From positions 1 through 44,036 of the forward strand of contig JAUIID010000015.1 in NCBI GenBank assembly GCA_030431615.1: a stretch of DNA of 44,036 bases, written 5' to 3'. The position numbers and the translations under genes were made by a program. The notes under the pieces are model-generated. The model saw only the letters and a program-made list of their open reading frames with translations. It made no database searches and had not been told where the DNA came from. Source of the stretch: Alphaproteobacteria bacterium. GTDB lineage: Bacteria; Pseudomonadota; Alphaproteobacteria; Geminicoccales; Geminicoccaceae. Below, in pieces: positions 29,320 through 32,115 of the stretch; within the stretch, counting starts at the first letter, position 1, and each line of letters starts with the position of its first letter.

Positions 29320-30738
29320 CTACCCCGCCACGATCTCCAGGCAATTCCCGCCGCGCGCCTTCGCCGCGTAAAGCGCCTTGTCCGCCGCTCCGAAGACGCT
29401 CTCGAAGTCCCGGCCATGCAGCGGATGGAAGGCGCCGCCCATGCTCAGCCGCACCGGCATGACCGCCTTGGGGCCCGAAGGCTCGCGATCGACCGCCCGG
29501 CGGATCTTCTCGGCGGCCGCCATCAGCTCCAGGGGCTCGGTGACGCCGCCCAGCGCCACGACGAACTCGTCCCCGCCCCAGCGGGCGAAGACGTCCTCGC
29601 TGCGCAGCACCTGGGAGACACACGCCGCCACCATTTGCAGCACCGTGTCGCCCGCCGCATGGCCATGGCGGTCGTTCAGGTGCTTGAACGCATCGACATC
29701 GATGACCAGCAGGGCGAAGCCGTCCGACCGGCGCCGCTGCGGTAGCAGGAGCGCCGCCAGGCGCTCGTGAAAGCCGCGACGGTTCAGAATGCCGGTGAGC
29801 GGGTCCCGGGTCACCTCGAGGGCGAGCGAGCGCTCCCGCGCCACCCGCTCGGTCTGGTCGCGCAGCACCAGGACGAAGAGCGGCTCGCCGGCGACGCGCG
29901 TGCCGCCGATCGAGACGTCGAGCACCAGCGGCTGGCCGTCCCGGACGAAGTTGACCTCGCGGCGACCGAACGCGCTGACGCCCTCGATCTCGCCACTGGC
30001 CTCGGCGATCAGCGGCCGGAGCTCGGGCACGAGCCCGTCGATCGAGCAGCCGACCAGTCGTCCGGGCGGCGCGCCGAGAAGCGTGGCCGCGGCGATGTTG
30101 CCGAGCCGGACACGGCCCTCGCCGTCGGTTACGAGGGCGGCGTCGTGCATGACGTCGAGCAGGGTGCCGACCGGGCTTTCGGGGATGTTGCCGACGACGA
30201 AGCGGACGACCTGCCCGTCCGCGTCGCAGAAGGGCAGGACCAGGCGGCGCCAGCTGCGCACCAGCACGGCGGCCGGCGGCTCGTGCTCGGTGAAGACGGG
30301 CTCGGGACGGCGCATGACGGCGCCATAGACCACGGAGAAGAACCTGCCGATATGGCCGGCGAAGGCATCCGGGCGGAGCCCGGTCATGTCCCGGCCATAC
30401 TGCCGGGCGATGCCGGCGCCATAGTACCGATAGACGAAGTCCCCGGGACCGGTATCACCGTCCGCGCGCCGCTCGAGGTCGAGCTGCATCGTCCACTCCG
30501 CGAACTCGCGCTCGATGAAGGCCGCGGCCTTGTCGGGTGGTGGCGGCCGCAGGCCGACCACCAGCGCGGACCACTTGTCGAGCAGGCGTTCCAGGATGGG
30601 TGAGCGCAGGACCTCCAGTCGCGGTGCCCATATCACCACCGGCGGCCGCGCCTGGGCCGACATGAAGAGGCTGCCCACCAGCGAGAAATCCTCGCCGACG
30701 ATCGCCTCAACCAGGCTCTGGTAGCCCTCTTCGTTCAC
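29320..30738 (-). CDS. PAS-containing GGDEF diguanylate cyclase
   Basis: 472 aa from a GTG at 30738 preceded by AGGA; the ORF extends to 30882 without support. The first ~180 residues look like an alphaproteobacterial PAS-type sensor region (DFVYRYYGAGIARQYGRDMTG, LVLPFCDADGQVVRFVVG). A canonical PAS segment follows (VMHDAALVTDGEGRVRLGNIAAATLLG). The C-terminal GGDEF domain has RDPLTGILNRRGFHERL and the intact active site RWGGDEF. It should make cyclic di-GMP from two GTP in the cytoplasm. No EAL domain and no membrane segment are present. Confidence 0.9.
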   Translation of the reverse strand: MNEEGYQSLVEAIVGEDFSLVGSLFMSAQARPPVVIWAPRLEVLRSPILERLLDKWSALVVGLRPPPPDKAAAFIEREFAEWTMQLDLERRADGDTGPGDFVYRYYGAGIARQYGRDMTGLRPDAFAGHIGRFFSVVYGAVMRRPEPVFTEHEPPAAVLVRSWRRLVLPFCDADGQVVRFVVGNIPESPVGTLLDVMHDAALVTDGEGRVRLGNIAAATLLGAPPGRLVGCSIDGLVPELRPLIAEASGEIEGVSAFGRREVNFVRDGQPLVLDVSIGGTRVAGEPLFVLVLRDQTERVARERSLALEVTRDPLTGILNRRGFHERLAALLLPQRRRSDGFALLVIDVDAFKHLNDRHGHAAGDTVLQMVAACVSQVLRSEDVFARWGGDEFVVALGGVTEPLELMAAAEKIRRAVDREPSGPKAVMPVRLSMGGAFHPLHGRDFESVFGAADKALYAAKARGGNCLEIVAG

Positions 30739-30959
30739 CTTGGTCCTGCGACCCCAATGATGGCGACGGGCCAATTGTTTCGCCCGCGCGTCACCATTCG
30801 GCCAAGACCGGCATCCAGGCAACAGGCAATGCACCGGACGGGAACGGCCCGGGGCCGCCGCTGGCGTTGGTTGACCCATCACGAACGCTTATGGCCTGCC
30901 TGGCCATGCCGGTCCGGAGAATTCCTTTCGGGCTCTGGCGAGCGTCTGCCGGCTCGGGT

Positions 30960-31105
30960 TGTCGCATCATACGCGACAGTTGGGCTCGGGTTGTCGCGTA
31001 TAATGCGACAGCGGACCAGCGACTGTCGCGTATGATGCGACATAAGCGATCGTGATGTCGCAGATAATGCGACAGTGACGCCCTACTGTCGCGTTATGCG
31101 CGACA
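30960..31105. repeat. Five 19-bp palindromes TGTCGC-N7-GCGACA at 32-bp spacing
   Basis: Copies start at 30960, 30992, 31024, 31056 and 31087, so the period is 32, 32, 32 and 31 bp. Each has perfect 6-bp arms and a 7-bp A/T-rich centre (ATCATAC, GTATAAT, GTATGAT, AGATAAT, GTTATGC). Copy 1 is the exact reverse complement of copy 3. Spacers are 13 bp (last 12) and differ in sequence. The period is close to three turns of DNA, so a protein would bind all five on one face. Confidence 0.9.
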
Positions 31106-31110
31106 CTTGC

Positions 31111-31215
31111 CGACGAACAAACCCGGGGAATCGACGATCGAACCCACCGATTCGACGATCGAACCCGGGAATCCGACGAACGAACCCAACCTGCCGCGAA
31201 CGAACCCGGGTTCAG
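31111..31215. repeat. Five tandem 21-bp repeats, consensus CGACGAWCGAACCC
   Basis: Units start at 31111, 31132, 31153, 31174 and 31195, an exact 21-bp period (two helical turns). The first 14 bases are well conserved; the last seven vary (CGGGGAAT, ACCGATT, CGGGAATC and so on). The array begins 5 bp after the palindrome array. In one frame it would encode seven-residue repeats such as STIEPTD and STIEPGN from a TTG at 31107, but there is no ribosome site and I do not call a gene. Confidence 0.85.
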
Positions 31216-31368
31216 GCAAGCCGTTGAGTTGCATGACTTTTCCCGGCCGGATGGCCGCCATCCACCAGTGCGGGCCTCCCCGAAACCCGAATATGCCGAA
31301 CGAACCCCGGGGCCCGCCCGCAGGGTTGCGCCCCGAGGCAATTTAGGCTATAATTCCTTCATCGGTGG

Positions 31369-32115
31369 TCAGAACAGCCCGTCATGCACGAGCTTCAGGC
31401 CGGTGAGCAGGACGAAGACGTAGCAGAGCCGGTAGAAGAGCACCTGGTCCACCTTGCCGTGCAGCCAGATGCCGAGAAGCATGCCGATGGCAGCCACTGG
31501 GGCCAGGGCCAGCGAGGTGGTGAGGTTGGCCGCATCGAAGAGGCCGAGTGCCGCGTAGGGTGCGATCTTCGCCGCGTTGATGACGGAGAAGAGCACCACC
31601 ATCGTGCCGACGAAGATCGATTTGTCGAGCTTGAGCGGCAGGAGGTAGATGTTGGCCGGCGGCCCGCCGGCATGCGCGATGGTGCTGGTGAAGCCGGCGA
31701 CGCCGCCCCAGAACCCGCCGGCCAGCGGGCGCTGCGGTCTGGCCTCGATGCGGCTCTTGTCGCGAAGGAAGTAGTCGGCGGTGAAGCCCACCGCGATCAG
31801 GCCGAGGACGACCCGCACCACGTCGTCGTCGAGATAGCCGAAGGCGAGGCCGCCGACGAGGATGCCGAGCAGCGCCCCCGGCAGCATGACCCGGACGACC
31901 CGCCGGTCCCAGTGGCGGCGATAGGCCCAGAGCCCGATCAGGTCCATGAGCACGAGCAGCGGCAGGAGGATGCCGGCGGCCCGTGCTGGCGAGACCACGA
32001 TAGCCATGAGCGGCACGGCGGCGATGCCGAGGCCGCCGCCGAAGCCGCCCTTGGAGATGCCGAAGATCAGGACCGCCGGGATGGCGACGAGATAGAAGAC
32101 CGGGTCGTCGATCAT
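31369..32115 (-). CDS. TauE/SafE-family sulfite exporter-like membrane protein
   Basis: 248 aa with about eight hydrophobic segments. Family features are the N-terminal FGISKGGFGGGLG and the second-half repeat GGFWGGVAGFTSTIAHAGGPPANIYLLP. The family moves sulfite, sulfoacetate or other organosulfur anions across the inner membrane. Substrate unknown. The start lies 9 bp after the stop of the secreted-protein gene, so the two form a unit. Confidence 0.9.
   Translation of the reverse strand: MIDDPVFYLVAIPAVLIFGISKGGFGGGLGIAAVPLMAIVVSPARAAGILLPLLVLMDLIGLWAYRRHWDRRVVRVMLPGALLGILVGGLAFGYLDDDVVRVVLGLIAVGFTADYFLRDKSRIEARPQRPLAGGFWGGVAGFTSTIAHAGGPPANIYLLPLKLDKSIFVGTMVVLFSVINAAKIAPYAALGLFDAANLTTSLALAPVAAIGMLLGIWLHGKVDQVLFYRLCYVFVLLTGLKLVHDGLF

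Follow-up and report, generated by a model that had tools for sequence, protein, structure and literature searches.

In the present study, we found that the five TGTCGC-N7-GCGACA palindromes in the window, i.e., the whole 44,036-nt stretch of alphaproteobacterial DNA analyzed, form one end of a composite element that is dispersed in the host genome. The explanation that we favor, and to which we give about an even chance, is that they represent one module of this element, in which cooperatively bound, DNA-wrapping sites control an outward-directed promoter. The dispersal and layout of the element, the phasing of its sites, the constraint on their arms and the concerted change of these arms between species, the turnover of copies, and the promoter-like end are all documented here at the level of DNA sequences.

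Palindrome array and composite element

Exact matching placed the palindromes at starts 30960, 30992, 31024, 31056, and 31087, with intervals of 32, 32, 32, and 31 bp in this order, as the first-pass annotation of this DNA had reported; its observation that the first copy is the third inverted also held, and was exact across 21 nt (30960-30980 against 31022-31042). A scan of the rest of the window for the 19-mer pattern revealed no further site with fewer than two mismatches. Besides the palindromes, three aspects had escaped the earlier description: 21-bp direct repeats (31111-31207), a promoter-like box (31326-31359), and the fact that the unit as a whole is dispersed. The features are as follows.

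29320-30738, minus strand: GGDEF/PAS gene on the other flank, outside the element
30878-30892, minus strand: second copy of the spacer motif, ATAAGCGTTCGTGAT, 67 bp outside the array; found in copies that also have the spacer motif
30960-30978, no strand: palindrome 1, TGTCGC-N7-GCGACA; unit 5 when counted from the 21-bp repeats
30992-31010, no strand: palindrome 2, exact copy of the 19-bp pattern
31024-31042, no strand: palindrome 3, exact inverse of palindrome 1
31043-31055, minus strand: conserved 13-bp spacer TCACGATCGCTTA, in a subset of copies and in either orientation; also in congeners
31056-31074, no strand: palindrome 4, exact copy of the 19-bp pattern
31087-31105, no strand: palindrome 5, 31 bp from palindrome 4 and adjoining the 21-bp repeats
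31111-31207, plus strand: five CGACGAACGAACCC-like direct repeats with a 20-21 bp period (two helical turns)
31128-31132, no strand: GANTC site (GAATC) within a 21-bp repeat
31149-31153, no strand: GANTC site (GATTC)
31169-31173, no strand: GANTC site (GAATC)
31297-31307, plus strand: CGAACGAACCC motif, single promoter-proximal copy
31326-31354, plus strand: sigma70-like promoter TTGCGC-N17-TATAAT, facing outward from the arrays and into the neighboring gene at its 3' end
31344-31359, no strand: conserved end box TAGGCTATAATTCCTT (AAGGAATTATAGCCTA on the minus strand), element boundary
31369-32115, minus strand: TauE/SafE-family gene, stop codon 9 bp from the end box

Each palindrome array in the genome is one end of an element of approximately 400 bp, in which the pentad is followed by four or five 21-bp direct repeats with GANTC, and then by a linker and a sigma70-like promoter that points outward. 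Direct repeats of the form GGGTTCGTTCGTCG precede the array in 37 of the 38 loci that were retrieved for the anatomy of the element, and most of their spacings are 21 bp (91 of 21, 25 of 20). Beyond them, most copies carry the box TAGGATTTATAGCCTA; read on the opposite strand, it supplies the -10 of a sigma70-like promoter (TTGnnn-N17-TATAAT/TATAAA) that faces away from the arrays, and one repeat motif lies immediately upstream of the -35. A strict promoter scan of the 38 copies gave a spacer of 17 in 21 copies, 18 in three, 15 in two, and none in 12; the end box is inverted or shifted in a few copies.

The 21-bp arrays contain 71 GANTC sites in 4,256 bp (16.7/kb), compared with 1.28/kb in the DNA flanking these loci; other pentamers of this kind occur 0-6 times in the arrays. 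The most frequent repeat form has A as the N in 27 cases and T in 34. In alphaproteobacteria, GANTC is the site recognized by CcrM; it is scarce in genomes and favored in intergenic positions (PMC3973325). A density of 20.5/kb was obtained for the pentads of congeners, in part because the half-site TGAGTCG found there contains GAGTC. Since the repeat consensus enriches its own content, and since CTNAG is as rare in the window as GANTC (1.16/kb observed, 2.88 expected), the link of the 21-bp repeats to methylation is regarded as a strong lead rather than proof.

Regarding the spacers, a TCACGAT-N-GCTTA sequence between two units is common to the host species and its congeners, and is found in either orientation. 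Some copies of the element hold the 13-15 bp motif TAAGCGNTCGTGA twice (31043-31055 and 30878-30892 in the window), approximately 150 bp apart, and its orientation between units 2 and 3 flips from copy to copy; it could be a candidate site of recombination or binding. The earlier proposal that the palindromes themselves are recombinase binding sites did not gain support, even though the spacer between units 2 and 3 exists in both orientations.

Genome-wide copies, turnover, and change of the arms

The first-pass annotation treated the array as one local site, a frame that proved to be too small. In the host genome, a 314-contig assembly that is 97% complete, the exact 19-mer pattern occurs at 169 places (reversed control pattern, 0), 124 neighboring pairs are spaced by 31 or 32 bp, and approximately 38 phased arrays, among which pentads predominate, contain almost all of the exact copies. 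A motif scattered singly and unphased, which had been envisaged as the result that would speak against a dedicated site, does not describe this distribution; the dispersal of the motif takes the form of phased pentads. Thirty of the 38 arrays have five units, six have four, one has three, and one has two. All 141 neighboring spacings are 31 (39) or 32 bp (102), with a mean of 31.72 bp, which is close to three turns of 10.5 bp, and the order in most pentads, counted from the side of the 21-bp repeats, is 31-32-32-32. The proposed placement of all units on the same helical face is therefore borne out by every spacing. Pairwise identity among 30 pentads was 98.6% for the arms, 52.6% for the 7-bp centers, and 43.9% for the spacers, in agreement with the earlier impression that the arms are fixed while the rest differs, and the view that these are protein-binding sites rather than products of slippage is supported.

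Beyond the host genome, 384 other genomes of the class contained 0-3 single exact matches each and no such arrays, and 95 relatives, including 28 of the same family and two of the same genus, had no linked pair of the exact 19-mer. A scan of approximately 85,000 species genomes, from which the window's own genome was perhaps left out, for three linked units matched only an Akkermansia contig, which was rejected as a 32-bp tandem repeat of identical copies unrelated to the element; the end of this Akkermansia-labeled metagenome contig (L067:1621-1710) is a perfect 32-bp tandem repeat that includes TGTCGCCTTCAAGGCGACA. When the literature was searched for the core motif GGGTTCGTTCG, none of the papers listed was relevant. 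In other genera of the family, a sequence model found weaker, irregular CTCGGGTTCGTTCGTGCAAA clusters, with no pentads in the loci inspected. One such genus (G020:C5, L109-L116) has approximately 48 irregular CTCGGGTTCGTTCGTGCAAA clusters along a 5.4-Mb chromosome, some of them directly 3' of stop codons.

The genomes of two congeners, both incomplete (82-86%), contain the element with the same box, a promoter-like layout, and 21-bp repeats as in the host. Complete copies there have five 19-bp units separated by spacers of 12-13 bp, their half-sites are of the TGAGTCG and TGGCGCA types and differ from the host arms, and TGTCGC arrays are absent. Blocks have been swapped between congener copies in a mosaic manner. 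Of 18 congener copies, two are found at the 3' ends of genes whose orthologs in the host likewise adjoin a copy. In the converse comparison, 20 congener gene ends orthologous to element-bearing ends of the host comprised two that were occupied, one with a relic, and 17 that were empty, from which we conclude that copies come and go; taken together, the low number of orthologous copies and the predominance of empty sites define a dispersing intergenic repeat family that turns over. At both persisting orthologous sites (L057/L080, beside a MatE gene, and L011/L087), the arms have changed and the pentad layout has been kept. This suggests that the element is a landing pad for a putative DNA-binding protein, with a fixed layout and with sites that have been replaced wholesale in sister species.

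Regarding genomic position, gene ends were taken from a codon-usage gene caller, the calls of which are approximate. A neighboring gene ends towards the box in 26 copies, 16 of which have the start of the box at -5 to +14 bp relative to the stop codon. On either side, the flanking proteins represent approximately 70 Pfam families, nearly all encountered once only, which agrees with the previous remark that the flanking genes do not explain the array. A regulon marked by the copies was rejected for this reason, and since the flanking genes have no function in common, the copies are unlikely to form a classical regulon. On one contig, two element copies (L045:8570-12673 and L064:8126-10993) precede genes with atypical codon usage, encoding an M23-peptidase/beta-propeller protein and a class-V aminotransferase, which suggests islands beside the element at these loci. 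A further copy lies downstream of a gene for a ParA/MinD-type ATPase and the ribbon-helix-helix (RHH) gene that follows it (L060:6437-7343); both congeners have kept this pair, with 83% identity in the RHH protein, and the element adjoins it only in the host genome.

Possible functions and alternative explanations

In the explanation that we favor, a dimeric regulator would bind the five palindromes cooperatively on one face of the helix, bending or wrapping the DNA, a second protein or CcrM-type GANTC methylation would act on the 21-bp repeats, and the two would jointly switch the outward promoter. Regulators similar to Lrp bind as cooperating dimers at two- and three-turn spacing (PMC2995911). 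From this promoter, convergent or antisense transcription may then enter the neighboring gene at its 3' end. The element itself would spread by copying to new gene ends, with its sites co-evolving with the binding protein.

The strongest competitor, which we consider possible and clearly less probable than the above, is a mobile element similar to MITEs and BIMEs, non-autonomous and without a host function, the arrays of which bind a transposase or an accessory protein. The dispersal of copies, the mostly empty orthologous sites, the exchange of mosaic blocks between congener copies, the preference for gene 3' ends, and the one truncated relic are all consistent with such an element, and the invariance of the arms would be accounted for by recent movement of intact copies only. 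The left end of the element is sharply defined and the right end uncertain. However, no target-site duplication was recognized by eye, and neither terminal inverted repeats nor a linked transposase were recognized at the element copies; the 21-bp repeats are located solely at one end and the palindromes solely at the other. Invariant arms next to centers and spacers that have diverged to approximately 50% ask for selection on each copy, and the two orthologous copies that kept the pentad layout with changed arms also do not favor simple mobility.

A more far-reaching version of the regulatory explanation, to which we assign a rather low probability, is a genus-specific, genome-wide nucleoprotein system in which dozens of methylatable phased arrays and a fast-evolving putative protein have switched recognition sequence together at all sites during speciation. 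If true, this system would be a bacterial counterpart of centromere or hotspot sequences that co-evolve. Dispersed repeats of bacteria are usually loose in structure, whereas the species compared here have retained a rigid two-array layout, and the recognition sequence has been swapped in every sampled copy, including those at two orthologous gene ends. The element therefore offers a tractable case for studying the joint change of a protein and its dozens of binding sites, and for asking if gene ends can come under epigenetic or antisense control by small mobile repeats.

The palindromes may also act as RNA, with hairpin units in a 3' UTR setting the stability or termination of mRNA, which we regard as unlikely. 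Most copies follow stop codons in the sense orientation, and as single strands the arrays fold far better than shuffles in the host species and congeners (z -7.5 to -9.5); such folding is expected of any inverted repeats, and that of the 21-bp repeats was ordinary (z -1.5). None of 33 predicted pairs had a compensatory change in 24 aligned pentads, and the spacers showed no excess complementarity. In the congener copy L087, the half-sites of several units are non-complementary, although neighboring units can pair; this example came from a chain finder that misses most congener arrays, of which the alignment gives a better view. Exact inverse centers were somewhat enriched between units 1 and 2 (4 versus 0.84 expected, P 0.007) and units 3 and 4 (7 versus 2.24, P 0.004), which we read as local inverted copying. 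Since hairpins need no exact 31/32-bp phasing, the invariant arms and exact phasing are better explained by protein-binding sites.

A slightly less probable alternative than an RNA is a family of genome-organizing or segregation sites, centromere-like or nucleoid-structuring, with binding sites that evolve fast in concert. Approximately 38 copies in 5.3 Mb, each of them a large array, the concerted change of arms between species, and the copy adjoining the ParA-RHH pair are in its favor. On the other hand, conservation between species is lacking at most sites, such a family would not be expected to carry a promoter, and an examination of clusters of the related motif for even spacing along the chromosome of the near-complete relative G020 showed a random distribution (CV 0.91, P 0.36). 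A ParABS centromere was rejected because the ParA-RHH pair is conserved in both congeners without the element beside it, and the single partition or replication site initially considered was rejected on these observations and on the number of copies.

Binding sites for SciP, a cell-cycle regulator, are very improbable: the arm GTCGC/GCGAC equals the half motif GCGAC published for Caulobacter (PMC4287350) and the element also has the GANTC sites of this circuit, but the half-sites are in the opposite orientation with a gap of N7 instead of the N5 in the full motif GCGNC-N5-GNCGC, and PF06627 was not found in the host genome and occurs in both congeners, where TGTCGC arrays are missing. The missing SciP match in the host genome (G000) could reflect an assembly gap. 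The host assembly has no 16S gene, and its placement in the Alphaproteobacteria was deduced from a 16S sequence in another member of the family and from the congener SciP, a protein of this class. A phage or plasmid origin was rejected because no homologue was found in phage, plasmid, or viral collections, in which the three viral contigs matched by the 21-bp pattern contain a coding repeat.

Comparison with known systems

The element belongs with the composite dispersed intergenic repeats of bacteria, among which its unusual trait is the rigid double-array architecture. By form, its nearest relatives are the neisserial dRS3/NIME repeats, in which ATTCCC-N8-GGGAAT units occur in dispersed intergenic mosaic elements (PMC3898611). 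Both have palindromes of approximately 20 bp with invariant 6-bp arms and variable centers dispersed between genes, whereas pentads at exact three-turn spacing, a 21-bp repeat array, and a promoter are found here, and approximately 700 single repeats there contrast with approximately 38 elements. Membership in dRS3 was rejected because the arms here, TGTCGC/GCGACA with N7, have no sequence relation to it.

By GANTC content and host class, the nearest are the CIR elements of Caulobacter and other alphaproteobacteria, which have been reviewed as conserved GANTC-bearing intergenic repeats (PMC2229807). The present element shares with them the bacterial class and the presence of GANTC in an intergenic repeat. 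CIRs measure approximately 110 bp and are shared between genera, whereas the present element has approximately 400 bp, pentads found in one genus only, phased arrays, and a promoter. REP/BIME and MITE-type repeats are likewise extragenic, composite, palindromic, and mobile or formerly mobile, and differ in lacking the fixed pentad geometry and the two helically phased arrays seen here, where no terminal inverted repeats or transposase were seen.

Regarding the arrangement of sites, the Lrp/AsnC operator arrays of the Ss-LrpB and Ptr2 type, at which cooperating dimers wrap DNA, have sites two or three helical turns apart (PMC2995911), to which the 31/32 and 20/21 bp spacings of the present element correspond. 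These arrays serve one or a few promoters, whereas the element described here occurs in approximately 38 dispersed copies with rapidly changing arms.
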